Program-made: the position numbers and the translations under genes | From: a virus | Reading direction: 5' to 3' (one strand) | DNA length: 21,227 bases | IMG/VR virus record: IMGVR_UViG_3300030102_001177 | Location: 1-21,227 of that record | The notes under the pieces: model-generated | The model's database searches: none | What the model saw: the letters and a program-made list of their open reading frames with translations, nothing else | Told to the model about the DNA's origin: nothing | Shown: positions 128 through 17,199 of the stretch, piece by piece | Position numbering within the stretch: position 1 is the stretch's first letter | Layout: each line of letters begins with the position of its first letter

Positions 128-557
128 GTATATTAAGCCTTGCACACCAGAGTTAGCTTTGAGTGTAGGGCTTAACCTACGTTACGAAGACAGACGAGAA
201 GCCGAAGAAACCACAGGATTATGTGCGGAGGCTTCTATTCTTCAATCATTTTATGAATCAACTTATTCCGTGTATTTCACGGTTCCCAACGGCAAGGCTG
301 CTGGAGTGGCGGGAGTGACACCGCACAATCTAATATGGATGTTATGTACTGATGCCAGCACAGAATATCCTCATACATTTGTTAAAGAAGCAAAACGCTG
401 GGTAAACAGTTTACTTAATCCTTATTTGTGTAACCAAGCTGATATGCGTAATGAGTCACACATAAAATTATTGAAACTTTTAGGATTTACTTTAGTTAAT
501 TATCATGTCTACAATGGAGTTCCCTTGATACAATTTATTAAACCATGTGTACAGTAG
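90..557 (+). CDS. T7 gp13-like protein with GNAT-type fold
   Basis: 155 residues, close to the size of T7 gp13 (about 138 aa). Visible features are the 'AGVAGVTPHNLIWMLCTD' strand region (residues 71-88) and 'N121-x2-H124-x7-GF133', a pattern typical of the GNAT acetyltransferase fold (N..H..L..LGF). T7 gp13 is needed for virion morphogenesis and has been called an internal virion protein; phage homologues are often labelled acetyltransferase-like, but I know of no proven substrate. The chosen ATG lies inside the end of gp12 (38-nt overlap), with no clear Shine-Dalgarno; a second in-frame ATG at 114 is possible. The gene overlaps the gp14-like gene by 13 nt, suggesting coupled translation. 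Family assignment is firm from motif plus position; enzymatic activity is inference. Confidence 0.75.
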   Translation: MATTTKKDMYEGKYIKPCTPELALSVGLNLRYEDRREAEETTGLCAEASILQSFYESTYSVYFTVPNGKAAGVAGVTPHNLIWMLCTDASTEYPHTFVKEAKRWVNSLLNPYLCNQADMRNESHIKLLKLLGFTLVNYHVYNGVPLIQFIKPCVQ

Positions 558-1303
558 CAGCATTTGCTATTGGTATGGGTGTGACTAAGACTGTTGCTGG
601 AATTGCAGAGCAAAACAGACAACATGCAAATCAAGTCGATGCTGTTAACCGTAGCAATGCTATGGCTAGACAGAACTATATCAATCAAATTACAATATCT
701 GCTTATGAGGATCAACGTAAGGGAGAAGTCTTTACAGCGAAACTACAAGCAGATGCAGCCTCTAGGGCAGCATATTTCAAACAAAAAGAACTTAACCAAG
801 CTGAAGCAACTAGAGCAACTGTTGCTAACGATCAGCAATTAAGAGAAAAAATAAACGAGCAGATGTTTGCTAGTCAAGCAAATCTTGCTAAAGCAATACA
901 AGCACAAGGCACTATACTTGCTAGTGGAATGTCAGCTGGGCAATCTATGCTCTTAGAATTAAATCAAGCTGAACGTGATTTAGGTTTTGCACAAGCACAA
1001 ATAGACGCAACTGTGTTTGATGCTACACGTAATTACGGTATCCAACAATATGGTATTGATCTTTCACAATATTCAGGTGATATGAAGGCTAGAAATTCTA
1101 TTACAACTTCTGCCTCTGTTGCACCATACGCATCATTTATGACACCTAGACCTATTGAACAACAAGCTCCACGTAAACCATCCGCACTTGGCCCCATACT
1201 AAGTGGTATTAGTACTGGATTAGGTACTGCTACTACTCTTGGTGGAAAAGATTACTTTTCAAGTATGGAGATTTTTGGAGGTAAACAAGGAGATAACGTA
1301 TAA
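545..1303 (+). CDS. Internal virion protein, T7 gp14-like
   Basis: 252 residues, somewhat longer than T7 gp14 (196 aa). It begins MCTVAAFAIGMGV, like the short Cys- and Ala-rich hydrophobic start of T7 gp14. A long Gln/Ala-rich helical region follows (about residues 20-165), then a Pro-rich tail and a Gly-rich hydrophobic stretch (SALGPILSGISTGLGTATTL). In T7, gp14 is ejected first and forms the outer-membrane channel of the ejectosome. The start codon falls within the last 13 nt of the gp13-like gene, and the stop is 2 nt before the gp15-like gene, so the block is probably translated as one unit. Assignment rests on N-terminal similarity, composition and position. Confidence 0.75.
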   Translation: MCTVAAFAIGMGVTKTVAGIAEQNRQHANQVDAVNRSNAMARQNYINQITISAYEDQRKGEVFTAKLQADAASRAAYFKQKELNQAEATRATVANDQQLREKINEQMFASQANLAKAIQAQGTILASGMSAGQSMLLELNQAERDLGFAQAQIDATVFDATRNYGIQQYGIDLSQYSGDMKARNSITTSASVAPYASFMTPRPIEQQAPRKPSALGPILSGISTGLGTATTLGGKDYFSSMEIFGGKQGDNV

Positions 1304-1305
1304 CT

Positions 1306-4300
1306 ATGGCATATCAAAAAAGCACACAATTTAGTGGTTTTAGGCAAAGAATTGCAAACGATGATTCTAAACAGTTTAAAGACCTTGCTAAAAATTTAGA
1401 AAAAGAAAACTCTAAAACTCTTAAAGATTTTAACAAAGCAGCAGCTGCACAGATTACAGAAATGGGTCGTGTAAGTAAATTAGAAGCTGCAGCAGATACA
1501 TACGAACTAAACAATTTACGTAAATTTAGTAAAGAATTAGACGGTTTTTTAGATAGTACAATAAAAAATGTTGTTGCTCCTGTATTTGATGCTCAAATGC
1601 AAGATGGTATTAATCAAGGTATATTAGCACAACAGGGTGATGCAGATGCTTTAGATAAAGTACGTCTTAATGATTTACAAGAATTAGAGCTAGAACAAAG
1701 ATCTAATAAAATTGTAGAAGAAACAGAATTTAAAACAGAACAAATAAAAGAAAAATATCAAGAAGATTTACGAAACGATTTACGCACAGAATATAGGTTA
1801 CTTAATCTTAAAAAACAAAATTCTAATTTTGCTAGAGGATACCGTAAAGGTATGCTTATGGAAGCTGCTACTGGTTGGGACGCATACAGAGATAGTGTTT
1901 TGACTAATAGTTCTGATTATGAAATACAAAGTTTAGAAGTAGAACATGAAGGTGAGCGTTATAGAATTGGTGATTATTATAAGATTAAAAATCAAGATGT
2001 AAGAGATAAAATTTTAGCTCGTGTACAGTCTGACTATATAGCTAAAGAAGGTAATGGTTTTAGTAGATTTCTTGTTAACAAACATTTAATAAATCCTATT
2101 ATAGAAAGAACTAATTTATTTCAACAAAAAGAGTTTAAAAAAGAACAGGTTGAGTTAGCACAAGAAAGGTTAAATGATTTAAAAGTTAAATTTGAAACTA
2201 ATTTTGCAGAGTTAGAGACTGATGTAGGGGAAGCTAAAGCTGTTGCTGTTATACAACATGCTCTCAATATATTACCATCTACCATGAAAATGGCTGGTGT
2301 AGAGGGTAGTTACAACCAAGCTGCTAAAGCAAAACTTATAGAAATGTTAACTGATAAAGGTTCATTTTTATATAATGGTAGTTTAGCTAATCAAGATGAC
2401 CAGAACGATATTTTAGATTTTTTTGAAAAACCTTTGTTTTATGTAAAAGGTGTATCTAAAATGGAAGGTAACACAATGAAGTTATCATCTCTTAGTGATC
2501 TAATGGCAGGTGCTATTAATAGGGAACAGTTACAAGCTGCTATGTTAGCAGAACAGTATGAAAGATCAGCTAAAGAAATAGAAGGTAAGAAAATTAATCT
2601 TAAGCAAACTTTAGAAAAAATTAATATTGAATTTAAAGGAGACCCTACTGGTAAAGCTTTAGCATTAAGTCAAGTTATGAATGAGAACTATGGCAAATAT
2701 TGGGCTAAAAATATATTAAGTAATAATATTGATGGTTATGAGGGTGTAGAACCTTATGACGAAAATCAAAGTGTACAGGTACTCCTTGAATTAGAAAAAC
2801 AATATAATGTTGGTGATGAAAAGTACGGTATTATACCCTTATCTTCGATTAATTTAGAACGTATAGATCCCGCAGTGCTAGCAGCATATATAGAAGATGG
2901 TAAGATAGGTGACCCTTATGAGAATGAACCTGGATCTGCAGCAAAACATAAAGGTTACGCAGAAGACATGAATAAATTAGCTGAAGCAATATTTTCTAGA
3001 AACGTAGGTAATGGTTCCTTAACTCAAGCTGATGCTGACCTACAGACAGACAACTTTACTAAGTTTATCAGCCCTTTACTCTTATCTACTGCTCGTGGTT
3101 ATGTAGCCAATAATAATGTCACACTAAACGAAGGATTAGATATGGCATTTAATTATTGGAAAAGTCAACTTCAAGGTTTCAATGGTAAAGCAGCAGATGG
3201 ATGGCAAGAAGGCCCTGTTAATTTAAGGGTAGGAACTGAAGGTTGGGAAAATCAAAAAATATATAAAACTGAAGCTATTGCTATAGCTAGTCCAAAAAAT
3301 TTAAAGCTAAAAGAAAATAATAAATTAAGACTAATAGGAGAAATGTATCATAATAATGAAAGTCCAAATTTATTTGAAAGTAAATTATTTTTTGACAAAA
3401 GTGATTTAGTTTATTTTGATCTTGATAACAAAGGTGATATTCACCCTATATTTCATCGTATGTCTCTTCTTTCAGAAGGAACTACACCTCCAGAATTAAT
3501 ATATAATCAACAAGCTAAGTTACTAGAAAAAGTTACAGGCATGAAGCTAGTAAAAGAGTGGGACGAAAAAACACAAATTAGACTTAATGCTTGGGAAGAA
3601 TTAGACTTAAATCAAAAAAAAGCTCTTGTTAGCGGTGAAACAGAAGGTTTTAATAGAACTTTAATGGGAATAGGTTTTTTCTCTCCTTATAATCTTATGT
3701 CATCTATGGTGACTGAAGAAGGTAAATTACCTTTAAATGGAGAAGAAGCAAATGTTATTTTAAACGAAATGGGTCTATCTGCTATGAAGTTTGATGAGTT
3801 ACTAGCTGACCCTAAATTATTAGAAACTGTATTAAATGCTAAAATTAGAAAAGGTGTAGAATTAACTAAAGACTTAACTAACAACGATAATATTAGAATA
3901 CGTATGGTTGCAGCTTATATGGCAACAGGTGATATTAACAACTGGAATAGTGACGAATACCAAATGTTTACTGCTAAAGTTTTGTCATCATACAAAAGTG
4001 GAGACACCTCTGCTATCGTACCTTTATTAAAAGAATTTAATATGAATGGTAGTTCCTTTAAGGTTGACTACAATATTAATGAAAGTTATATTCACCCAGA
4101 AGGTTCAGTATATAATGAAGAACCAGCAAATAACTTTGAAGGTATATTAGACCAATTATCTAAGTTAGACGCTGAAGGTATCCCACCTCAATTTATTGAT
4201 GTTGCTCCTATAGAAACAGGGGCTGTTAGTGGTTTACTACAACGTATGTTGTCTAAAAATCCTACTCGTGTTGTTAATGAAAAATATAATTCATATATAA

Positions 4301-5064
4301 AATTTAAACAAAATTTAGAAGATAAAAGAAACATTTTTCAACAACTTGAAGGTAAAGGAAATATAAATGCTGGTGTATTTTATAATTCATTACGTAGAGT
4401 TTTAGGAGATGAGAAGTACAATGCAATTAATGCACAGGCTGGAGAGTTATTTAGTCGAGGTCGTTTTGTTACTAAAGATAAAGCTTTGATACATGTATTA
4501 GTACAACAACCAGAGTTTGCTAATTTAGATATAGCTGATAAATACCTTAAAAGTTTAAATATGAAACTAACTGTCGATCCTAAACGATATGATGTTGGAG
4601 GTGATCTTGTAGGTAACATATCTAAAGACGATTTGATAGGTATACGTGGTTTCCCTAACGCTTTTGATAGAACTCAAGGAGTAGTGTCTATTAGAAAAGA
4701 TGCTTACCCAGATTGGTATAGATTCTTTCAAGATGCAAATGCAAACGGTCATAAGTTTGGTATAAATGACGGTTACAGAACTAATAAGCAACAAGCAAAA
4801 TTATTAGAAGAAAAAGAAAAGAAAAATTTAGGTAAAGATGTTAAACAGCCTGGAAAATCTAATCATAACGCAGGCGTATCCTTAGATTTAGATTGGGCTA
4901 CTGAGGCAGATTATCAATGGTTATTAGATAATTATAAAAATTATAATTTATGTCCACACACAGGTACACCAAGTTTAGACATGAACAGCGGTAACAAAGC
5001 TGGAGAAATCGAAGCATGGCATTGGAGTTGGGATCCTACGGGATCATGTAACCTAGAACGATAA
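1306..5064 (+). CDS. Internal virion protein, T7 gp15-like, with C-terminal M15 peptidase domain
   Basis: 1252 residues, far longer than T7 gp15 (about 747 aa). Most of the protein is charged and helical with no motif I recognise; position between gp14- and gp16-like genes gives the gp15 assignment. Residues about 1130-1250 look like a zinc peptidase of family M15 (VanY / L-Ala-D-Glu endolysin type): 'GINDGYRT' with the substrate-binding Arg, then S1185-N-H1187-N-A-G1190-V-S-L-D1194 matching SxHxxGxAxD (A replaced by S), then E1236-A-W-H1239-W, which supplies the catalytic Glu and third zinc ligand. The motif set is complete, so activity on peptidoglycan cross-peptides is likely. In T7 gp15 lines the periplasmic conduit; here it may also cut the wall during entry. 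AAGGAG at 1287-1292 precedes the ATG by 13 nt, longer than usual. Confidence 0.8.
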   Translation: MAYQKSTQFSGFRQRIANDDSKQFKDLAKNLEKENSKTLKDFNKAAAAQITEMGRVSKLEAAADTYELNNLRKFSKELDGFLDSTIKNVVAPVFDAQMQDGINQGILAQQGDADALDKVRLNDLQELELEQRSNKIVEETEFKTEQIKEKYQEDLRNDLRTEYRLLNLKKQNSNFARGYRKGMLMEAATGWDAYRDSVLTNSSDYEIQSLEVEHEGERYRIGDYYKIKNQDVRDKILARVQSDYIAKEGNGFSRFLVNKHLINPIIERTNLFQQKEFKKEQVELAQERLNDLKVKFETNFAELETDVGEAKAVAVIQHALNILPSTMKMAGVEGSYNQAAKAKLIEMLTDKGSFLYNGSLANQDDQNDILDFFEKPLFYVKGVSKMEGNTMKLSSLSDLMAGAINREQLQAAMLAEQYERSAKEIEGKKINLKQTLEKINIEFKGDPTGKALALSQVMNENYGKYWAKNILSNNIDGYEGVEPYDENQSVQVLLELEKQYNVGDEKYGIIPLSSINLERIDPAVLAAYIEDGKIGDPYENEPGSAAKHKGYAEDMNKLAEAIFSRNVGNGSLTQADADLQTDNFTKFISPLLLSTARGYVANNNVTLNEGLDMAFNYWKSQLQGFNGKAADGWQEGPVNLRVGTEGWENQKIYKTEAIAIASPKNLKLKENNKLRLIGEMYHNNESPNLFESKLFFDKSDLVYFDLDNKGDIHPIFHRMSLLSEGTTPPELIYNQQAKLLEKVTGMKLVKEWDEKTQIRLNAWEELDLNQKKALVSGETEGFNRTLMGIGFFSPYNLMSSMVTEEGKLPLNGEEANVILNEMGLSAMKFDELLADPKLLETVLNAKIRKGVELTKDLTNNDNIRIRMVAAYMATGDINNWNSDEYQMFTAKVLSSYKSGDTSAIVPLLKEFNMNGSSFKVDYNINESYIHPEGSVYNEEPANNFEGILDQLSKLDAEGIPPQFIDVAPIETGAVSGLLQRMLSKNPTRVVNEKYNSYIKFKQNLEDKRNIFQQLEGKGNINAGVFYNSLRRVLGDEKYNAINAQAGELFSRGRFVTKDKALIHVLVQQPEFANLDIADKYLKSLNMKLTVDPKRYDVGGDLVGNISKDDLIGIRGFPNAFDRTQGVVSIRKDAYPDWYRFFQDANANGHKFGINDGYRTNKQQAKLLEEKEKKNLGKDVKQPGKSNHNAGVSLDLDWATEADYQWLLDNYKNYNLCPHTGTPSLDMNSGNKAGEIEAWHWSWDPTGSCNLER

Positions 5065-5068
5065 AAAC

Positions 5069-8000
5069 ATGAACGAAGAAGAATTAATGCGACTCGATAA
5101 TGTCGAGGAGCAAGGGGAGACTACGGTTGATGACCCCGAAAGGTTTACTAAATACACAACGTCTGAGGTAAACAAACATAGTGAAGATAGCCAAGCTCTT
5201 TTAGAAGCAGCTCAACGAGATCAAGAAGCTGCTGCTGCAATAGCACAACAGGAAGCACAAGCAGCTGAAGGTACGAACCCTCAAGGTTTGTTACCAGATG
5301 GCCCTGTAAATTTTTTAGGTGAAACTGCCAAAGGTGTTTATGGTGGTTTAACAGATGCTGTTGAAAGTGCAGGTAGTTTTTTAGATCTTACGGGAGATAC
5401 AATTTCTGCTACTGCTAACAGAATTATGGGTTTAAACCAATCATACGGTAATAACCCATTTAATTTTAAAGAGTATAGAAAAGCACAAGAGCTTGGTATA
5501 GGTGGGGCACAACCTGGAATCTTAAATGTACCAGATAGGTTTCAACCTGAGACTTTATCTGGTTATGGTGATTTAGTTAGAGGATTATCAGAGTTTGGTT
5601 TTCTACTATATGCTACAGGAGGTGCTGCAAAGGTACTAAAACCTGCTACTACATTACGAAAAGCTGCTGTAATACAGAACAAAATAGGTAAAAATTTACT
5701 TGCAGGGGCAGTAAAAAGTAAAACACCTATTATAAGTAAACTTGCACAAACAAGGAAAGGTGCTAGATTTATTAAATTTTTACCAAAAAATACTGGTAAA
5801 TTAAGTAATATAGCATTTGAAGGGGGTGTTGCTGATCTTATATCATCATCCTCTGATTATGGTAACCTAGCAAATTTAATAGATGAGTATGCACCTTGGT
5901 TACCACTTTCAGAATTTTTGTCTGTTGATCCAGATGAGGATAATCCTTGGACAGCTAGAATTAAAACTGTCTTTGCGGGGGCTGGGGCTAACATAGTTGC
6001 TCATTATTTAATAGCTTTCGGTAAAGCTAGGTTTGCTGCTATACGTAAACGTAAATCTGGAGCAAGCATAGATGAAGCTAACGTACATGCAAATGGTGTG
6101 TTAGATGAAAGGTTAAAAAACGAAGTTAGAAATGAGTATAAACAACGTGAAGAATTAAAGAAAGATGCTGCAGTTGATGGTCGTGGTATACCTCCAGATC
6201 CTTGGGAAGACCATGTTGTTGGTAATTTAGATGAAGAACTAGGTAAGATGTATGTACACCTTACTAAAGGTAATTTACAAGATGTTATTGGCAATGATAT
6301 TTTCTTTCATGGTAGTGGTAGAGGACTCCCAGGAGATTTTCCATATTATGTAAGAGATGGTCGTAGATGGTCTGATGATAACTTAATGGGCAATGGTTTT
6401 TATACTGTTGATGATATTACGGTTGCTGCTGATGCTAGACCTCAAGGACAGGGACTTACAATTAGCATGGATGCTAGTGGTAAGAAAAAAGTTATGTACA
6501 GAGTTAACGAAAGAGAACCTGTAAACTTTTTTGATGCTGATAAACAATTTGATTTTGATGGTACAGATCCAGAAATTGCTGCATTTAAACGTGCAGGGTT
6601 TCTTCAAGAAAGAATAACAGATAAGGGTTTAGAGCTAGGCCCAGGACTTAGAAATCCCGAAGGCAACCCAGAGTTTGTGTCTGCATGGCCAACAGAGGGT
6701 AGTATAAGTTATTCTGATTATGTCCAAAGAATTAAAGATGAACAGTTATATCCTCGTGAAGAAGTTACACAGGTATTAGATACTATACATTCTGACTTAC
6801 AAGAGTTAGGGTATGGAGGTATACAGTACACAGCTAATCATGGTGAAAAAACACATAAAGTTAGAGTATACTGGAACCCAGATACTCAGATAGAACTTGA
6901 CAAATATCGTTTAAGAAATACCTTAGATCCAGACGTATCTACTGATTTACCTATATTTGACAGTAGAGGGTTTGGAGTACGACCACCTAGAAAACCTTGG
7001 CAAACAAACATAGAAGCTGGTAGAGGATTAGAAGGTAGTCGTGGGGCAGAATATTTAATAAATAGATTAAGAAAAAAATTTGTTATTGATGGTTTAGATT
7101 CAACTGAAGTAGAAGCTATCGAAGATTTTATCAACATGATGGGTGATAGGTTTTTCGGTGATGTATCTTTATCTATAACAAATAAATTAGGTGTTCAAGG
7201 TAGATTTAATTTTGGTAATAAACTTGTAGAAATACGTAGACAAATATTTGAAACAGGTGATTTTACCCAAACTATGATACATGAATTGTGGCATACGTTA
7301 TCTAGATATTTACCTGCAAAAGATGTTAAAAAATTAGGTGTAGAGTTTAAAAATCGTAAAGCTAAATGGTTAGCTGCAGGTGGTAAAGATGTAGAGTTAT
7401 TTAAAAAAGGTAGATACACACCTTCAAATTATCGTTACAAAAATTTAGACGAATATTTTGCTGAGACTATGTCAGATGAATTTGACATGTTTATGGTAAA
7501 TTATGACCAGCTAGCTCCCGAAGGTACATTTAAACGTATAACTCAAGAGGTTGCAATATTTGTAAAGGATTTGTATGCTTCTGTTGCTTCACGTTTAGGT
7601 GGCAGTCAAACTAGACGTATATTTACAAATTATCGTAAACAACTTTACGAAAATATGCAACGTAAATACACATTAGAATTAGAACAACAGGGTTATGGTG
7701 GATGGGATCCATTTATTGATGATGATGATTTTATTACAACTAACCTTGATGAGTTTGACAATGCTGAAAATAAAAATGGATTTAAAAGTCCTAGAGCTGA
7801 AGATTTAGAAAACAAAGCTGTACAGAAAGGTCAAGAAATAGGTGATCCTTGGTTTGATGAAGAAGGTGCAACTTACAGTGATACTTTTGGTAGTAAACAA
7901 GTTGACCCAGATCGTAACCCTAATATGTTTGGTGAACAGGATAAAACCTTTGTACCAGATGATAATAAAGACTTACAAGGTAAAGCTACTAGAGTTGTTA

Positions 8001-10741
8001 AGGAAGTACTAGACGAAGGTACAACTAATTCACAGGTACTAATACATAGACAGATAGAAAGAATGGCTGACGGTAGCGAGTCACTTTATAAATTTATTAA
8101 AGAATTTTCCGAAAAATTAGCCAACGAAATTTTTGACAATAAATTAAACTCATTTGACTATAAAAAAGTACAAGCTGCAATCTTACGTAAATCTGAAGAG
8201 TTATATTCTAGAGTAAATGCTGACGTAGCAGAGGGTACAAACAAGAATTTTATGTCTTATTTTGATCCTAAACGAAAGGATAATTACATAGATTATATGA
8301 CTGATGGTAACCAAGTTGTTACTGGTACGCCAGAACAAAAGGTTGCTTTGGAGATGGTTATACAAACATTGTCTAAAAGAGCTTCTCTATACGCTACAGG
8401 AGCACTAGAACTACCTCCAGGGGCAGCTGGTGTTCGTCAAATGCAACACGCCAACAAATCGCTTGTACTAGCCTTAAAAGAGTACAAGAAGATGAGCTAC
8501 ATGGCAGGTAGTACACTAGAAAGATTTAAAAACAAACTTATGCCAGAGGATGCTAGAAAACTTATAGAAGGTGAATTAGCTAGTATAGATGAGGCATATG
8601 ATGAGTTTTATAAAGAACTAGATAGAATAGCAAAAAATGGTAATAATGTAGAACGTACTACACTTATGGAAATACAAGCCTTATCTGGAGGTAGCGTGAC
8701 TACCCTTGATGATGCTTTGCAATGGGTTAAAGTAAGAACAAAAGGTGGTAGATACAAAGGTCAATCTTATAGATCTGGTATTAGAGAACAAGCTAAAGGA
8801 ATGTTTTATAATTCTGTATTAAGTAGTTTACGTACACCTATTAAAGCTATCGTTGGTACTAATTTTATTGCATTGTTACGTCCTTTTCAAACTTATGTAG
8901 GAGCTGCATTACAACGTAATAAGAAAGAAATGGTTATTGCTGCAGCACAGTTACATGGTATCAGTGAAATGTTTGCAGAAGGTTTTAAAATGTTTAGACA
9001 TAACTGGGATTTAGGTATAAACCGTAAAGCTCAAAGTTATGTTGGTAAATTTAACGTAGAAACAAATTCAGCAGAATTTAAACAATTAGGTAAATTTGTA
9101 GAAATGTATGGTACGGATTCTGAGAAAACGTATTATGCTATAGCTAATTTTATGTTAGATTTTAACAACTCACCTTGGGTACGTTATTCACAAAATGCTA
9201 TGGGTGCAGGTGACGCATTAGCTAGAACTTTAATTGGTAGGTTTGAAATGCGTATGAGAGCAGCTAGAAAAGCAATAGATGATGGTGTAGATCTTGATGA
9301 TGTAGTGGAAGTAGCAACTAGAACTGAAAAGAATTTTAGAGAACAAATATTTAAAAAAGACGCATATGATATGTGGGTTGTATCAGACAGAGCTGCAGCC
9401 CTAGCAGGTGACGAAACTGCCTTAACTAAACCATTAAGTGGTAATTTAAAAGGTTTAGAATCACTTTCATCAATAACTGGTTTTAAAAATTTCTTTCCAT
9501 TTGTGCGTACAGGTTTTAATGCGTTAGATTTAACATGGCAACATACCCCTGGATTAGCTAGATTCAATAAAAAATACAAAGATTTAATGGAATTTGCTAA
9601 TAATGGTGGTAAAAATGCTAAACAATTAGAGGTAGAGTACGGTATTAGAAAAGAAGATATACCTCAAGCTATAGCTTTAATGAAAGGTAGAGTAGCAACA
9701 GGTACTATGTTAAGTTTTATGGCGTTTACTGCTGCTGTAACAGGTAACATGACAGGTACACTACCATACGATAAAGAAACTAGAGATCACTGGAGAAACA
9801 ATAAAATACAACCTAACTCTTTTAAAATAGGTAACACTTACATATCTTATGGTGATATGGAACCATATAACACTATTTTATCTGCTGTTGCTAACGTAGC
9901 TGGTTATCAAAACTCGTTAGGAGAAGCAGTTAGAGATGATATGTTACAAAAAATACAATTTATGTTTGCTAGTGTAATAGTTGATAAATCTATGTTAGCA
10001 GGTGTTGACGATCTTGCTCAAGTATTTAGTGGTAATATCAGTGAAATACAATTAGGTAGAATAGCAGCAAAATTTGTTAGATCACAAGTACCTTATTCTG
10101 GTCTTATGGGTCAGTTAGGTAACTTAATGGATGAAAATGAAAGAATAACCAGAGGATTTTGGGAAACCACTATAAGAAGAGACATAGGATTTAAGTCATT
10201 TCTAGCTCCTAAGTACGATATACTAACTCCTGGAAATAAAGCTCAACGATTTACACCATATACTTCTAATCCATTGTTAAAACTATGGAACTCATTAAGT
10301 CCTGTTGCTATATCTTACGCTGCTGGAGATCCTGTAAAGGAAGCGTTGCAAAGTATTAGTTATAATTTACCAGAGGCTTTGAGAACTTGGAAAGGTGAGG
10401 AATTAAATTCTTTTGAACAATCTGAATTACAAAAATATTTAGCTGAAAGTAATTTATATGCTAGATTAAAGACACTTGTTACGAGTAAACAATGGAAAGA
10501 TGCTGTACAACAGTATAAAGATGATGGTTTACTTGCGAGAGAAGGTATGCGTCCTGTAGATCAACGGTTTTATTTACAAGTACAAAGTATATTTTTAAAC
10601 GAAAAGAAAAAAGCAATAACTAAATTACGTGCTAATAACCCTGATTTATATGCACGTATTAAAGATAGAGAACTTAGAAGGTTCTATAGTAAGAAAGGTA
10701 ACTATAACGTATTAAATGAATTAAAAAAACACGGAATTTAA
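5069..10741 (+). CDS. Internal virion protein, T7 gp16-like, with ADP-ribosyltransferase-like and metallopeptidase-like domains
   Basis: 1890 residues against about 1318 in T7 gp16. The N-terminus is acidic and Ala/Gln-rich and shows no transglycosylase motif. Residues about 400-610 resemble the ADP-ribosyltransferase domains of polyvalent phage proteins: FFH414GSG, then GNGFY445TVDD, then LGYGGIQY (581-587) and a closing 'VRVYWNPDTQIEL', which mirrors the family's 'GYDGI..Y...V.F.P.QI'. The usual third acidic residue is not obvious (Q586 or E593). Residues about 700-830 hold H738-E-L-W-H742, a zinc-protease HExxH, followed by NLDE795YFAE799, a plausible third ligand. Hydrophobic stretches occur near residues 1545-1567 and in the N-terminal 350. 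In T7 gp16 is ejected and spans the inner membrane, pulling in DNA. The gene starts 4 nt after the gp15-like stop. gp16 identity comes from size and order; domain calls come from motifs; targets are unknown. Confidence 0.75.
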   Translation: MNEEELMRLDNVEEQGETTVDDPERFTKYTTSEVNKHSEDSQALLEAAQRDQEAAAAIAQQEAQAAEGTNPQGLLPDGPVNFLGETAKGVYGGLTDAVESAGSFLDLTGDTISATANRIMGLNQSYGNNPFNFKEYRKAQELGIGGAQPGILNVPDRFQPETLSGYGDLVRGLSEFGFLLYATGGAAKVLKPATTLRKAAVIQNKIGKNLLAGAVKSKTPIISKLAQTRKGARFIKFLPKNTGKLSNIAFEGGVADLISSSSDYGNLANLIDEYAPWLPLSEFLSVDPDEDNPWTARIKTVFAGAGANIVAHYLIAFGKARFAAIRKRKSGASIDEANVHANGVLDERLKNEVRNEYKQREELKKDAAVDGRGIPPDPWEDHVVGNLDEELGKMYVHLTKGNLQDVIGNDIFFHGSGRGLPGDFPYYVRDGRRWSDDNLMGNGFYTVDDITVAADARPQGQGLTISMDASGKKKVMYRVNEREPVNFFDADKQFDFDGTDPEIAAFKRAGFLQERITDKGLELGPGLRNPEGNPEFVSAWPTEGSISYSDYVQRIKDEQLYPREEVTQVLDTIHSDLQELGYGGIQYTANHGEKTHKVRVYWNPDTQIELDKYRLRNTLDPDVSTDLPIFDSRGFGVRPPRKPWQTNIEAGRGLEGSRGAEYLINRLRKKFVIDGLDSTEVEAIEDFINMMGDRFFGDVSLSITNKLGVQGRFNFGNKLVEIRRQIFETGDFTQTMIHELWHTLSRYLPAKDVKKLGVEFKNRKAKWLAAGGKDVELFKKGRYTPSNYRYKNLDEYFAETMSDEFDMFMVNYDQLAPEGTFKRITQEVAIFVKDLYASVASRLGGSQTRRIFTNYRKQLYENMQRKYTLELEQQGYGGWDPFIDDDDFITTNLDEFDNAENKNGFKSPRAEDLENKAVQKGQEIGDPWFDEEGATYSDTFGSKQVDPDRNPNMFGEQDKTFVPDDNKDLQGKATRVVKEVLDEGTTNSQVLIHRQIERMADGSESLYKFIKEFSEKLANEIFDNKLNSFDYKKVQAAILRKSEELYSRVNADVAEGTNKNFMSYFDPKRKDNYIDYMTDGNQVVTGTPEQKVALEMVIQTLSKRASLYATGALELPPGAAGVRQMQHANKSLVLALKEYKKMSYMAGSTLERFKNKLMPEDARKLIEGELASIDEAYDEFYKELDRIAKNGNNVERTTLMEIQALSGGSVTTLDDALQWVKVRTKGGRYKGQSYRSGIREQAKGMFYNSVLSSLRTPIKAIVGTNFIALLRPFQTYVGAALQRNKKEMVIAAAQLHGISEMFAEGFKMFRHNWDLGINRKAQSYVGKFNVETNSAEFKQLGKFVEMYGTDSEKTYYAIANFMLDFNNSPWVRYSQNAMGAGDALARTLIGRFEMRMRAARKAIDDGVDLDDVVEVATRTEKNFREQIFKKDAYDMWVVSDRAAALAGDETALTKPLSGNLKGLESLSSITGFKNFFPFVRTGFNALDLTWQHTPGLARFNKKYKDLMEFANNGGKNAKQLEVEYGIRKEDIPQAIALMKGRVATGTMLSFMAFTAAVTGNMTGTLPYDKETRDHWRNNKIQPNSFKIGNTYISYGDMEPYNTILSAVANVAGYQNSLGEAVRDDMLQKIQFMFASVIVDKSMLAGVDDLAQVFSGNISEIQLGRIAAKFVRSQVPYSGLMGQLGNLMDENERITRGFWETTIRRDIGFKSFLAPKYDILTPGNKAQRFTPYTSNPLLKLWNSLSPVAISYAAGDPVKEALQSISYNLPEALRTWKGEELNSFEQSELQKYLAESNLYARLKTLVTSKQWKDAVQQYKDDGLLAREGMRPVDQRFYLQVQSIFLNEKKKAITKLRANNPDLYARIKDRELRRFYSKKGNYNVLNELKKHGI

Positions 10742-10753
10742 CATTGATTATCA

Positions 10754-13700
10754 ATGGCAGTTACAACTAAAAAAACCTTTCCTAACGCAGTGGGTACAAA
10801 TGGACAGTCAAGCACTGTCTTTTCCCCCGTTGAGGTACAACTAAATAACCAAGATGATCTAGATGTTTACGTTACATTATCGGGTGGTACTAGAGTGCTA
10901 CAGCTACGCCAGTCTACTGGTAGCACAGCTGTTGGCTCTGGTGTTAACAAACACCCACAAGTAAATGATACAACTGGATTATACTTCCCTGCCGTTTCAG
11001 CGGGTACAACTTTATACAACTACACGCTTTCCACTGATAATAATACAATCACATTTAGCACTGCCCTACCAAACGGTGCAGTAGTTTCTATTGAACGTAG
11101 AACTAGAGATGCAGACAGTAATTATACAACTTTTGCTAGTGGCAGCACCATAAGAGCCACAGATCTTAACAACTCATCAACTGAATCTAATTTTACAGCA
11201 CAAGAAGCTAGAAACAAAGCATTTACTATAGAAGGTGCCTTGTTTAGAGGAAATCAAGCAAGTACAAACTTTGTTACAACAGACCATATTGTAAATGGTA
11301 CTATTGTTGAAAATGACCTAGCAAACTCAGCTATAACTCAAAATAAATTAGCTAACAATTCTGTAGGAACTCCAGAACTAATTAATGGTTCTGTGACTTC
11401 AGATAAAATTTTAAACGGGACTATTGTCAATGCTGATATAAGTTCAAGTGCAGCAATAGATGCTTCAAAAATAGTATCTTCAACAAGTTCAGTAGCTGGT
11501 ACTATGTCAGCGTCTGATAAAGCAAAACTAGATGGCATACAGTCTGGGGCGACAGACGATCAGACAGCAAGTGAGATAAAAACATTGTTGCAATCAGATA
11601 AAATAACTAATTCTGAAATAGCAACAGGTACTTTAGACAGTAGGTATTTTACTGAAACAGAACTTACTGACGGTGCTCTTGATGGTAGATATTTTACTCA
11701 AACAGCATCAGACGCTAGATATTTTAACATAAGTTCTGGTGAGACAATTAAAGATGGCGATACATTTCCTGACAACGATACTACAATTGCTACAACTGCA
11801 GCTATTAATGACAGAATTATTGACCTTATAGACGATGTTGGTGGGTTTGATATTATACAAAGCGAGCAACATTTTCCTAACACGAACCCACAAGGGGTTA
11901 CAGGTCAAGCAGCTGTACTAAGTGTCAAAGCAGCCTCGACTAATTTAGTTCCTAGCGGTACAACTGTAACTATAAGTAATGGTAACTTAGCTAACAACGC
12001 TAATATTACTATAACTGGTGTTACCTCTACTATACCTACGGGTTTTGGATTCTTGGTAGAATCAACAAGTACAACACATACATATGCGTTTCACAGATTA
12101 GTACCAAATGCAACACAGGTTTCAACCGTTGCTGGTAAAGCTGTAGAAATAGGCAGATTAGGTACTGCTGATGCTGTAGCAGACATGGCAATACTTGGTA
12201 CAGCAGATGTTGTATCTGATTTAAACACTTTAGGTACTGCTGACGTTGTAGCTGATATGAACATGCTTGCTACATCTGATGTTATATCTGACATGAATAC
12301 GCTTGCAGTAACTGATGTTATCAATGACATGGATACTGTAGCTACTAATGTTGCTAACGTAAACAATGTTGGTACAAATATAGCAAAAGTTAACACTGTT
12401 GCAGCAGCAATAGGTGGTACACAAACATTTATTGTTACTGTACAAAATGTAGGTGGATCTAATTATTTCTTTATAGATGGTCAACAGGCACCAGTATTGA
12501 CTTTGGCTAGAGGTTTCACATACACATTTAATGTATCAGATAGTAGCAATAATAATCACCCTTTAAGGTTTAAAGACGGTAGTGGTAATAGTTATACAAC
12601 AGGAGTCACTGTAACTGGCAGCAACGGTTATTCTGGATCTACTGTAGTTATTGCTGTAGCAGCTAACGCACCTAGTTCATTACGTTATTACTGCACTGCA
12701 CATGGTAACGGTATGGGTAACACCATAACAGTTACTGATGATAACATAGGAATAGTTGCTGGATCTATCACAAACGTAAATGAAGTTGGTGACGATATTA
12801 CTAATGTAAATAGTGTTGCTACTTCTATAACAAACGTAAACACAGTAGCAAGTAACATATCTAATGTTAACAGTTTCTTTAGCGTATATCGTATTGGTGC
12901 AAACAACCCTACATCTAGCTTAGATACAGGTGACTTATTCTTTAATACCACATCTAACTCACTTAAGGTTTATACAGGTAGTGCTTGGGTAGATGGTGTC
13001 ACAGCTACAGGTAACTTTGCTGTTGTTACTGGTAACACATTTACTGGTAGTAACGTACATAACGACAACGTAAAGTCTATATATGGTACAGGGTCAGATT
13101 TACAAATTTATCACGATGGATCTAACTCTAGAATTAAAAACGCTACAGGTCACGTAGTTATTGATACTGATAGTTTAGATATTAATAATGCAGCAGATAA
13201 TGAAACTTTAGCTAAATTTGACCATAACGGAGCCGTAGAACTCTATTACGATGGCAGTAAAAAGTTTGAGTCAAAAAGTACGGGAGTTCAAGTTACTGGA
13301 GATGTGGATGCAACTGGAGTTCTTAGAGCAAAGGACATTGCTTTAACTGATGTAAGTCCAGCAGTTAATTTTATTGATAGTGACGATAGTCGTCAATACA
13401 GAGTAAATTCACAAAGTAGTAAATTTAATTTTACAGATGTTACAAATAATATTGATAGATTAGTCATAAATTCAGATGGTCATATTGACATTCCAGGTAG
13501 AATAGATGCTACTGGCGGTATTGCTGTAACAGGAAACATCACAGTTACAGGAACAGTTGACGGTGTAGATATAGCTGCACTTAACACAACAGTGGGAAAC
13601 ATATCTACTGAAGTTGTCAATGACAGTTCACCACAGTTGGGCGGCAACCTTGATACGAACGGTAAAAATATAGTATTTGGTGATAGTTCTGGATCTACCG

Positions 13701-15265
13701 TGAATAGATTAACATTCGGGGCTGGGACAGACCTTTCTATAAGGCATACGGGAACAGACACTATTTTTTCAAATGCTACTGGTGATCTATACATAAACAA
13801 CGCTGGAGCTAATAGTGATGACATTATCCTTAGTGCTAAAGATGATGTTTTAATTAAAGTACAAGATGGTGAAACTGCACTTAATTGCGTTGGTAATGGA
13901 GGTGTTGAACTCTTTTACGACAACGTAAAAAAGCTAGAGACAAAAGCTGGTGGGGTGCAAGTTCATGGAAACTTAATGCTTGATAGTGATAATGATAAAG
14001 CCATATTTGGTGCTGGTAATGATTTACAAATTTATCACGATGGTTCAAATAGCTATATAGCTGAAGGTGGTACTGGTGATTTAATTATCACATCAAATGC
14101 TATTAGACCTCGAACAGATACGTTTGTAGTGAACAATGCAGCTAATAATCAAAACATGATAACTGCTGCAAATGGTGATGCCGTAACCCTGTTTTTTGGT
14201 GGCAGTACAAAGTTTGTGACAACAAACTCAGGAATCAATGTTACTGGACAAGCTGATGTTGACAGTATTAATTGTACTGGTGAATTAGATTTAGTTGGTA
14301 ATCTAGATTTAAACTCTGACAGCCACAGAATTAAACTCGGAGCAGGGGATGATTTTCAAATATATCACGATGGTAGCAATAATTACATTACTACTAACAA
14401 TGGTGATATTAACATTACAACCACTGGTGATGATATAAGTTTAACTGCTGCTGATGATATATTTCTTAACCCTCAAGGTGGTGAAGCTGGAGTAAAAGTT
14501 TTTGGTAACGGAGCTGTAGATCTATTTTATGACAACGTTATAAAATTTCAGACTACAAGTACTGGAACATCTGCTTATGGAGAGTTAAATCATCATGCTG
14601 GAAGCTATGTAAATGCTAGTGGTGGTTATGTAAAAGTTAAACATGACTCAGGCAGGCTTACTCTTGGGGCTGGTGATGACTTACAAATTTATCACGATGG
14701 TTCATCGAGTTATTTAGATACTGCTGGTTCACTTCAAATTCATACAACTGAGTTATACATTAATAACGAAGCTAATTCAGAAAGAATGATTAGAGGTGTA
14801 CAAAATGCAGCAGCAGAGTTATATTACGATGGGGTTAAAAAGCTTGAAACACATTCTGCTGGCGTAAAGGTAAGTGATGGTAATCTTTATGTAGATAGAG
14901 ACAATGCCAAAGTAGTTATTGGAAATAATGATGACATACAGTTATATCACAATAATGGCAATAACCTTATTTATGCAGCTACAAACTCGGCTCTTTTAAT
15001 AGGAACAAACAATACTCATAGATGGACGTTTAATAATACTGGTGAATTTAAACCAGCCGCTAACAATACTTATGACATTGGTTCAACATCTGCCAGAGTA
15101 AGAAACATCTACACCAATGACCTTCACCTATCTAACGAAGGTTCATCTAATGATGTAGACCAAACTTGGGGTGACTGGACAATACAAGAAGGAGAATCAG
15201 ACTTGTTCTTAAAAAATAACCGTTCTGGTAAGAAGTATAAATTTAATTTAACGGAGGTTTCATAA
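10754..15265 (+). CDS. Tail fibre protein, T7 gp17-like N-terminus, with cupredoxin-like insert and long repeats
   Basis: 1503 residues against 553 in T7 gp17. Residues 1-160 match the T7-type fibre attachment domain that docks on the tail ('TTFASGSTIRATDLN' and neighbouring 'NFTAQEARNKAF' are typical). A shaft follows with 'DKAKLDGIQSGATDDQTASE' and 'D(S/G/A)RYF' repeats, then five 12-residue repeats (469-528). Residues 556-660 are cupredoxin-like: H602, then C647-T-A-H650-G-N-G-M654, the type-1 copper ligand set H, C, H, M. Four 10-residue 'ITNVN' repeats (670-708) follow, then about six long repeats centred on QIYHDG and LYYDG-KK. The end, 'WTIQEGESDLFLKN', is a C-terminus common in marine phage fibres. 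Host receptor binding is the inferred role. No clear Shine-Dalgarno precedes the ATG, which is 12 nt after the gp16-like stop. Confidence 0.88.
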   Translation: MAVTTKKTFPNAVGTNGQSSTVFSPVEVQLNNQDDLDVYVTLSGGTRVLQLRQSTGSTAVGSGVNKHPQVNDTTGLYFPAVSAGTTLYNYTLSTDNNTITFSTALPNGAVVSIERRTRDADSNYTTFASGSTIRATDLNNSSTESNFTAQEARNKAFTIEGALFRGNQASTNFVTTDHIVNGTIVENDLANSAITQNKLANNSVGTPELINGSVTSDKILNGTIVNADISSSAAIDASKIVSSTSSVAGTMSASDKAKLDGIQSGATDDQTASEIKTLLQSDKITNSEIATGTLDSRYFTETELTDGALDGRYFTQTASDARYFNISSGETIKDGDTFPDNDTTIATTAAINDRIIDLIDDVGGFDIIQSEQHFPNTNPQGVTGQAAVLSVKAASTNLVPSGTTVTISNGNLANNANITITGVTSTIPTGFGFLVESTSTTHTYAFHRLVPNATQVSTVAGKAVEIGRLGTADAVADMAILGTADVVSDLNTLGTADVVADMNMLATSDVISDMNTLAVTDVINDMDTVATNVANVNNVGTNIAKVNTVAAAIGGTQTFIVTVQNVGGSNYFFIDGQQAPVLTLARGFTYTFNVSDSSNNNHPLRFKDGSGNSYTTGVTVTGSNGYSGSTVVIAVAANAPSSLRYYCTAHGNGMGNTITVTDDNIGIVAGSITNVNEVGDDITNVNSVATSITNVNTVASNISNVNSFFSVYRIGANNPTSSLDTGDLFFNTTSNSLKVYTGSAWVDGVTATGNFAVVTGNTFTGSNVHNDNVKSIYGTGSDLQIYHDGSNSRIKNATGHVVIDTDSLDINNAADNETLAKFDHNGAVELYYDGSKKFESKSTGVQVTGDVDATGVLRAKDIALTDVSPAVNFIDSDDSRQYRVNSQSSKFNFTDVTNNIDRLVINSDGHIDIPGRIDATGGIAVTGNITVTGTVDGVDIAALNTTVGNISTEVVNDSSPQLGGNLDTNGKNIVFGDSSGSTVNRLTFGAGTDLSIRHTGTDTIFSNATGDLYINNAGANSDDIILSAKDDVLIKVQDGETALNCVGNGGVELFYDNVKKLETKAGGVQVHGNLMLDSDNDKAIFGAGNDLQIYHDGSNSYIAEGGTGDLIITSNAIRPRTDTFVVNNAANNQNMITAANGDAVTLFFGGSTKFVTTNSGINVTGQADVDSINCTGELDLVGNLDLNSDSHRIKLGAGDDFQIYHDGSNNYITTNNGDINITTTGDDISLTAADDIFLNPQGGEAGVKVFGNGAVDLFYDNVIKFQTTSTGTSAYGELNHHAGSYVNASGGYVKVKHDSGRLTLGAGDDLQIYHDGSSSYLDTAGSLQIHTTELYINNEANSERMIRGVQNAAAELYYDGVKKLETHSAGVKVSDGNLYVDRDNAKVVIGNNDDIQLYHNNGNNLIYAATNSALLIGTNNTHRWTFNNTGEFKPAANNTYDIGSTSARVRNIYTNDLHLSNEGSSNDVDQTWGDWTIQEGESDLFLKNNRSGKKYKFNLTEVS
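12158..12337 (+). repeat. Five tandem 36-bp / 12-residue repeats in the tail fibre
   Basis: Residues 469-528 of the fibre read as five copies of a 12-mer: LGTADAVADMAI, LGTADVVSDLNT, LGTADVVADMNM, LATSDVISDMNT, LAVTDVINDMDT. The period then shortens to 11 and 10 residues (VATNVANVNNV, GTNIAKVNTV). Regular Leu/Val/Met spacing suggests a helical or trimeric shaft segment; this structure is inference. Confidence 0.85.
12761..12877 (+). repeat. 10-residue 'ITNVN' repeats after the cupredoxin-like domain
   Basis: Residues 670-708 read as GSITNVNEV, GDDITNVNSV, ATSITNVNTV, ASNISNVNSF. The same 10-residue type appears just before the cupredoxin-like domain, so that domain seems inserted into one continuous repeat array. 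Confidence 0.8.
13069..15060 (+). repeat. Long tail-fibre repeats (QIYHDG / LYYDG modules)
   Basis: About six imperfect modules of roughly 85-110 residues. Each has a first half around 'GAGDDLQIYHDGSNSYI' and most have a second half around 'ELYYDGVKKLETxxxGVxV'. The first-half anchors fall at about 13103, 13736 (degenerate, SIRHTG), 14027, 14357, 14684 and 14939 (QLYHNN). A 20-nt sequence is identical in three copies at 13100-13119, 14024-14043 and 14681-14700, so homology is kept at DNA level as well as protein level. Confidence 0.85.
15251..15257 (+). promoter_or_regulatory. Strong Shine-Dalgarno for the gene at 15265
   Basis: ACGGAGG lies 7 nt before the ATG at 15265. It stands out because most genes in the window have no clear Shine-Dalgarno, and it lies within the last codons of the fibre gene. 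Confidence 0.7.
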
Positions 15266-16599: not shown

Positions 16600-16936
16600 A
16601 ACTATATCTATACCTTTACCAACAGCCGATGTTCCAAATTACATCCCGCTGGTTGTACCTCCGAGCGATCTTCGTGAACCAGAGGGTACGCAACCAGCTA
16701 CCACAGAAAAAACAGAACAACCAGATCCACCGAGCATAAACATTCCAATTATTAATTTTAATGTACCACTGCCTACTGCAGACACGGTGGTAGTTGCTGG
16801 TTATGCAGCTGTTTCAGCTGTTGCGGTAACTACCTTTGCTCAACCATTTTTTGACACTATAAAGAAAAAACTACAAAAGTTATTATTAGGTAGAATAGAA
16901 AAATGGAAGAAAAGAAAGACAAAAAACAAGGTTTGA
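16556..16936 (+). CDS. Proline-rich single-pass membrane protein
   Basis: 126 residues. The N-terminal 75 are Pro-rich and hold a duplicated motif PLPTAD (residues 20-25 and 71-76). A hydrophobic segment at about 77-95 (VVVAGYAAVSAVAVTTFA) is followed by a strongly basic tail (KKKLQKLLLGRIEKWKKRK). By the positive-inside rule the tail would be cytoplasmic and the Pro-rich part periplasmic. Not assigned to a family; its place among small membrane and exported proteins suggests a role in lysis or in modifying the envelope, but this is inference. It starts inside the coiled-coil gene (44-nt overlap) and overlaps the next gene by up to 34 nt. Confidence 0.6.
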   Translation: MEVPTILIPNLQRIETISIPLPTADVPNYIPLVVPPSDLREPEGTQPATTEKTEQPDPPSINIPIINFNVPLPTADTVVVAGYAAVSAVAVTTFAQPFFDTIKKKLQKLLLGRIEKWKKRKTKNKV

Positions 16937-17199
16937 TGTCAGCGTGTGATACGCACGAAGAACGCATGGAAATAGTTAGTACACTTGTACGTTTAACTGT
17001 TGTAGTTTGGAGTGGATTTATAATTACTTTAAATTATGTAGAAGTACCAATGCTTAAGAAATCTTCTAATGCTGCAGATATAACTTTTGTGGCCTCGATT
17101 TTTGCGGGCGGTATTGCCAGTTTTGGTTTGTCTACATCTAACGGAAAAAAAGATACAAAAGGTGTAAAATGTTCTGAATGTCAAAAAGTAATTAAATGA
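16903..17199 (+). CDS. Two-helix membrane protein, holin candidate
   Basis: 98 residues with two hydrophobic segments at about 28-46 (LVRLTVVVWSGFIITLNYV) and 57-77 (ADITFVASIFAGGIASFGLS), short charged ends, and a C-terminal CSEC pair (residues 90-93). Size, two transmembrane helices and location in the late cluster fit a class II holin like T7 gp17.5, which also lies between fibre and small terminase genes. No sequence signature proves it. A shorter start at ATG 16936 is attractive because it forms a TGATG overlap with the previous stop and has AAGG just upstream; it would remove 11 charged residues. The stop overlaps the next ATG by 4 nt. Confidence 0.5.
   Translation: MEEKKDKKQGLMSACDTHEERMEIVSTLVRLTVVVWSGFIITLNYVEVPMLKKSSNAADITFVASIFAGGIASFGLSTSNGKKDTKGVKCSECQKVIK

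Follow-up and report, generated by a model that had tools for sequence, protein, structure and literature searches.

A T7-like marine virus whose gp15-like ejection protein ends in an M15 peptidase-like domain

Wall hydrolases on ejection proteins

In phage T7 the virion-borne wall hydrolase of the ejectosome is gp16, a lytic transglycosylase, and gp15 forms the periplasmic tunnel (PMC8954989). That paper treats domain swapping across ejection proteins as a theme, places a lysozyme on the gp15-like protein of K1E and K1-5, and has gp15s matched across phages mostly by size and synteny. SP6 and phiKMV also carry the hydrolase on the gp15-position protein, gp36 in both phages, and the phiKMV gp36 lysozyme is C-terminal (PMC5380687); Pfam assigns Phage_lysozyme to aa 770-905 of the 978-aa SP6 gp36. 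A Pfam search of gp15s from 16 named cyano- and roseophages found a Glucosaminidase domain in S-CBP1 and DSL-LC07, Phage_lysozyme2 below the cut-off in P60, and no hydrolase in the remaining 13. Hydrolases on gp15-position proteins are already known, but searches of open-access listings turned up no M15 peptidase at this position. The locus described here adds an SLT-like remnant, exchange among sister phages and a predicted hydrolase of the peptide-cutting type.

We analysed a 21,227-nt stretch of viral DNA, positions 1-21,227 of IMG/VR record IMGVR_UViG_3300030102_001177 on one strand (the window). Its ORFs run gp13, gp14, gp15, gp16, gp17, the T7 order, as judged from the ORF list and the PHROG and Pfam matches of the neighbours; HNH and terminase-like genes lie downstream of this block (Table 1). 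The gp16-like protein matches the internal virion protein family phrog_6651 (E 1.2e-251) and the gp16-like proteins of 16 named phages (hhalign E 7e-127). Its nearest named relatives are the Prochlorococcus phages P-SSP10, 9515-10a and NATL2A-133, which are classed as Tangaroavirus, Autographiviridae. A psbA (D1)-like protein, read by eye, is encoded upstream in the close contigs L005 and L007, and the host of the window phage is therefore very likely a marine picocyanobacterium.

Table 1. Positions of the features discussed, in window coordinates
Feature	Position	Strand	Evidence
gp14-like internal virion protein	545..1303	+	PF24072 E 9.8e-7
gp15-like internal virion (ejection) protein, 1252 aa	1306..5064	+	single ORF, place in gene order, N-terminal homology
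SLT-like remnant, gp15 aa ~719-932, catalytic segment absent	3460..4101	+	profile A9, alignment
Direct SLT-like-profile match, gp15 aa 829-887	3790-3966	+	second half of SLT-like domain
M15/VanY zinc peptidase-like domain, gp15 aa 1128-1243	4687..5034	+	PF02557, AF2 + Foldseek
Presumed zinc ligand His1187 of SxHxxGxxxD	4864..4866	+	motif, alignment
Presumed zinc ligand Asp1194	4885..4887	+	motif, alignment
Presumed catalytic Glu1236 of ExWH	5011..5013	+	motif, alignment
Presumed zinc ligand His1239	5020..5022	+	motif, alignment
gp16-like internal virion protein, 1890 aa, without SLT domain	5069..10741	+	phrog_6651, hhalign, no PF01464
gp16 insert, aa ~348-908	6110..7792	+	extra relative to P-SSP10 gp16
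Tail fibre, gp17-like N-terminus	10754..15265	+	PF03906 E 2e-7

The gp15-like gene sits between the gp14 and gp16 genes. The N-terminus of its product is collinear with the gp15s of the IMG/VR relatives L033 and L069, with strong homology (E 0), and with P-SSP10 gp15, with a weak match (E 1e-3). A gp15 profile run against 496 ORFs of named-phage loci matched the M15 domain of S-SSM4 alone, so homology to the named gp15s is the less firmly supported part: alignment with 16 of them is weak (hhalign prob 31, E 5e-4), and whole gp15 found no match in the phage collection by tblastn. The same architecture with M15 recurs in independent contigs, and the window frame is a single open ORF. Within gp15, aa 541-760 (window 2926-3585) share 58% identity with L005 at a dS of 0.71, against 94-96% and about 0.1 in the flanks; this divergent stretch suggests recombination.

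The M15 domain and its distribution

The end of the gp15-like protein (P0001) matches PF02557 (VanY) with E 1.1e-9 and a score of 38.6 bits (cut-off 25), and a six-frame search recovers the same interval (E 1.3e-12). The first-pass annotation had described a complete M15 zinc motif set here, beginning at 4699; the domain starts slightly earlier, and the description holds, with all zinc and catalytic residues present. The core motifs read SNHNAGVSLD and EAWHW. We take H1187, D1194 and H1239 to be the zinc ligands and E1236 the catalytic residue, the roles that these positions have in the M15 family. The serine, both histidines, the aspartate, the glutamate and the tryptophan before the last histidine are invariant in all seven aligned M15 domains (window, L006, L033, L034, L048, L050 and S-SSM4); we looked for loss of zinc ligands among these homologues and found none. 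The E values together with this conservation rule out a chance match of the motif. The AF2 model of the domain, of low confidence (pLDDT 66.7), has VanY/LdcB as its best Foldseek matches in the PDB (E 3e-5, prob 1.00, TM about 0.5-0.58).

Three pairwise comparisons gave the M15 region dN/dS values of 0.36, 0.34 and 0.30, close to those for whole gp15 (0.36, 0.32 and 0.32), and identity to L006 is 69.8-72.4% in the M15 region versus 54.8-54.9% over whole gp15. The low ratios and the higher identity to L006 argue that the domain is maintained; judged from substitution patterns, the M15 region is under purifying selection.

A scan of relatives for the gp16 core yielded at least 80 loci, and 65 of the 80 listed have a gp15-like ORF directly upstream of the core. 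These 65 and 22 other gp15-position proteins form a set of 87, which we searched with three profiles; a regex screen for hydrolase domains missed several and was replaced by the profiles. Seven of the 87 carry M15 (window, L005, L006, L033, L034, L048 and L050), and 17 match the SLT-like profile with E below 1e-58. The lysozyme-like profile A8 matches 16 with E up to 0.01; four of these went into the profile itself, and the other matches are mostly weak. At the level of records, PF02557 and PF01464 were searched in the IMG/VR records of 50 of the 80 loci. PF02557 was found in four of these 50 relatives and in four of 23 records of a further set, namely the window and those of L005-L007; the 19 named phage records of that set had none.

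The best-ranked named phage relatives of the window M15 domain are S-SSM4 and, with it, S-SSM6b. S-SSM4, a cyanomyovirus, shares the domain with the window on a 974-aa protein (PF02557 E 3.9e-8), but that protein belongs to a myovirus tail-baseplate neighbourhood and is not an ejection protein. It is encoded beside the baseplate hub (L027:919-3843) and annotated as an endolysin; in cyanomyoviruses it is probably virion-associated.

An SLT-like remnant and exchange at the gp15 C-terminus

We placed the hydrolase types on a tree of the gp16 core with 45 selected rows, setting aside the distant loci L075-L111, L063 with its split ORFs, 13 of the 19 named phages and the loci that lack a complete upstream gp15 (L039, L043, L044, L049, L053 and L066). 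In 17 of the 45 phages gp15 ends in an SLT-like domain with a glutamate and a GKYQ motif. [QK]ES and GKYQ occur in every one of these 17 proteins, and GKYQ in none of 18 long gp15s. Placement in the SLT family comes from PF01464, which matches four of the 50 IMG/VR records, two of them over the cut-off; all four matches are on gp15-like ORFs of 857-860 aa (L036, L071, L062 and L037, the last with E 0.00048). An hhalign comparison of the SLT-like set with the lone T7 SLT sequence was negative (prob 0.4), and a PDB search with the set gave no meaningful match.

The long gp15s retain traces of this domain. Window gp15 scores 20.8 bits with the SLT-like profile A9, versus 12.0 for the best of 3600 shuffles, and 15 of the 18 long gp15s outscore the best shuffled sequence. 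The remaining three, L034 (7.4 bits), L047 (0.3) and L068 (0.5), fall below it, but a reverse profile built from eight long gp15s matches them as well as several active SLT-like gp15s (L041 E 5e-10). In the alignment the ES...GKYQ segment is gapped in the long gp15s; those of P-SSP10 and 9515-10a keep LGKFQ/LGRFQ but not ES. The simplest reading of these alignments is that the SLT-like domain decayed in place in the long gp15s. The order could also be the reverse, with a shared structural piece to which the short gp15s added a catalytic segment.

What follows the remnant differs between sister phages. Window gp15 aligns with that of L069 over aa 1-1074 and with that of L032 over 1-1071, then stops where the M15 and the lysozyme-like domains begin; with the M15-bearing L033 the alignment runs to 1250. 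An alignment that stops at a domain border points to a replaced terminal module. The lysozyme-like domain (A8; members L032, L069, L074 and S-TIP37) has no match in Pfam; against the PDB it matched a '66 kDa protein' (E 0.0023) and, less well, lambda lysozyme (E 0.047), so that a GH104-like assignment is a lead only. In L074 the gp15-like ORF (1689-4517) has the lysozyme-like domain followed, by eye, by an M23/LytM-like sequence (GHDFAAPDG) with no match in Pfam. As a point against a hydrolase slot, 15 of the 41 gp15s of the clade have no recognised hydrolase. Nine long gp15s (L042, L046, L047, L054, L056, L057, L058, L067 and L068) have no recognised added hydrolase; most of them contain the SLT-like remnant, and about 200 aa of unrecognised sequence follow.

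One set of six phages, starred on the tree, combines M15 (window, L005, L006 and L033) with the lysozyme-like domain (L032 and L069). The four hydrolase states require six changes on the tree, versus a mean of 21.9 after shuffling. M15 requires two, possibly a single gain plus a single loss; the deeper forks are weak, and gain and loss are indistinguishable on this tree. The gp15 C-terminus thus resembles a slot whose glycan-cutting occupant decayed and gave way to another domain. The case is well sampled: virion wall hydrolases are swapped at one place of an ejection protein, a remnant of the earlier enzyme is visible, and a tree is at hand for ordering the changes.

Predicted role at entry

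We consider the following account probable as a whole. At its C-terminus the gp15 of the psbA-linked marine T7-like cyanophage group would have a slot for hydrolases. The slot would earlier have been filled by an SLT-like, glycan-cutting domain, which lost its catalytic segment and stayed as a non-catalytic part, and in the window lineage an M15 zinc peptidase would have been added behind it. During ejection, by analogy with T7, gp15 would form a tunnel across the periplasm, and its terminal M15 domain would make local cuts in stem peptides, allowing gp15, gp16 and the DNA to pass. Like the hydrolases of phiKMV, SP6, K1E and K1-5, the window domain forms the C-terminal end of the protein that precedes gp16; unlike those glycan-cutting lysozymes, it is an M15 peptidase preceded by an SLT-like remnant. 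S-CBP1, DSL-LC07 and P60 similarly have their hydrolase domain in the last third of the gp15-position protein, but their families are glycan-cutting. T7 gp16 and, by prediction, window gp15 are both ejectosome wall hydrolases that differ in protein, fold and bond class. The relation of hydrolase type to host wall chemistry can now be tested, as can the place in the gp15 tunnel at which the wall opens in phages without the gp16 transglycosylase of T7.

The strongest competing reading, though an unlikely one, is that the M15 domain acts as a D,D- or L,D-carboxypeptidase, trimming stem peptides but opening no wall by itself. The best PDB profile matches of the domain are YodJ/LdcB/VanY (E 9e-20 with profile A10), in line with the Foldseek result, and such M15B-like enzymes trim the wall instead of cutting it. 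However, the core motif SNHNxGV is common to the window and the endopeptidases LysB4 and Ply500, whereas LdcB and YodJ have SEHQTG, and the slot otherwise holds wall-cutting domains, which suggests an opening function. With LdcB/VanY and Ply500/LysB4 presumed to represent subfamilies M15B and M15C, respectively, the signals conflict, profile and fold being nearer M15B and the core motif nearer M15C. The motif of L034 is SDHEVG, so the M15 group may be mixed in type. These four share the zinc motif and fold of the window domain; they are free-standing enzymes or endolysins, whereas the window domain is part of an ejection protein.

A role, or an additional role, in host lysis at the end of infection is less likely still. 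No peptidoglycan hydrolase family was found among 37 ORFs of the near-complete relative G002 and the downstream part of the window, a scan that left out G002 D1, capsid, tail tube B, portal, polymerase, terminase and several other large proteins; with no other wall hydrolase in these 37 ORFs, a share of M15 in lysis is conceivable. In HTVC010P-type pelagiphages M15 is named as a lysis gene (PMC10504331). Against this, the window domain belongs to a 1252-aa ejection protein, and sister proteins have an SLT- or lysozyme-like domain in the corresponding position. A small conserved protein that has hydrophobic stretches and by eye resembles a holin is encoded at window 16903-17196 and at L113:1027-1329; in the window it precedes the terminase region, and an adjoining endolysin was not found.

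The first-pass annotation had proposed that the wall-opening function passed from the N-terminal part of gp16, its site in T7, to gp15, and this now appears very improbable. Its starting observation was borne out at the profile level: PF01464 (SLT) matches neither the window nor any of 21 other non-T7 records, whereas the T7 gp16 control is matched at aa 15-127 (E 5.8e-33; 1.7e-31 in another search). By these searches window gp16 is without a recognisable SLT domain, a statement drawn from profiles only, as the AF2 model of gp16 aa 1-910 (pLDDT 32) was not used. Nevertheless, none of 72 non-T7 records, many of them fragments, has PF01464 on gp16, and where the family is found in relatives it is on gp15. 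SP6 and phiKMV also bear the hydrolase on the gp15-position protein; their records title the gp16-position proteins 'with endolysin domain', for which PF01464 gives no support. The survey of relatives therefore does not back a move, and with an SLT-like remnant still present on window gp15 one domain seems to have replaced another within that protein. The T7 state, with SLT on gp16, may be the odd one. Of the proposed switch from glycan to peptide bonds, the presence of a peptide-type, M15 hydrolase-like domain on gp15 stands, and the change of bond is plausible. An inactive passenger is the least credible reading of the M15 domain, as all ligands are kept in seven of seven domains and dN/dS is about 0.3.

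The gp16-like protein contains an insert of ~560 aa that is also present in L006, L032, L033 and L069 and is conserved at 56-72%. Profile searches of Pfam and the PDB and tblastn against the phage collection returned nothing for it. Tentatively, the gp15 C-terminus of marine cyanopodoviruses might be an exchange slot for different wall-opening chemistries, in which an SLT domain decays to a structural part and a peptidase or a lysozyme-like domain is added after it; the ejectosome would then cut another bond while the same protein carries the cutter. The insert gained by gp16 in this lineage might in turn deliver ART and zincin activities into the cell. The motifs of the insert are an ART-like FFHGS...NGFY (H414) and a zincin-like HELWH (7280-7294) with a later glutamate; L034 gp16 keeps the first but not the HEXXH. 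The FFHGS...NGFY motif resembles the H-Y-D polyvalent ART described in PMC5512222.
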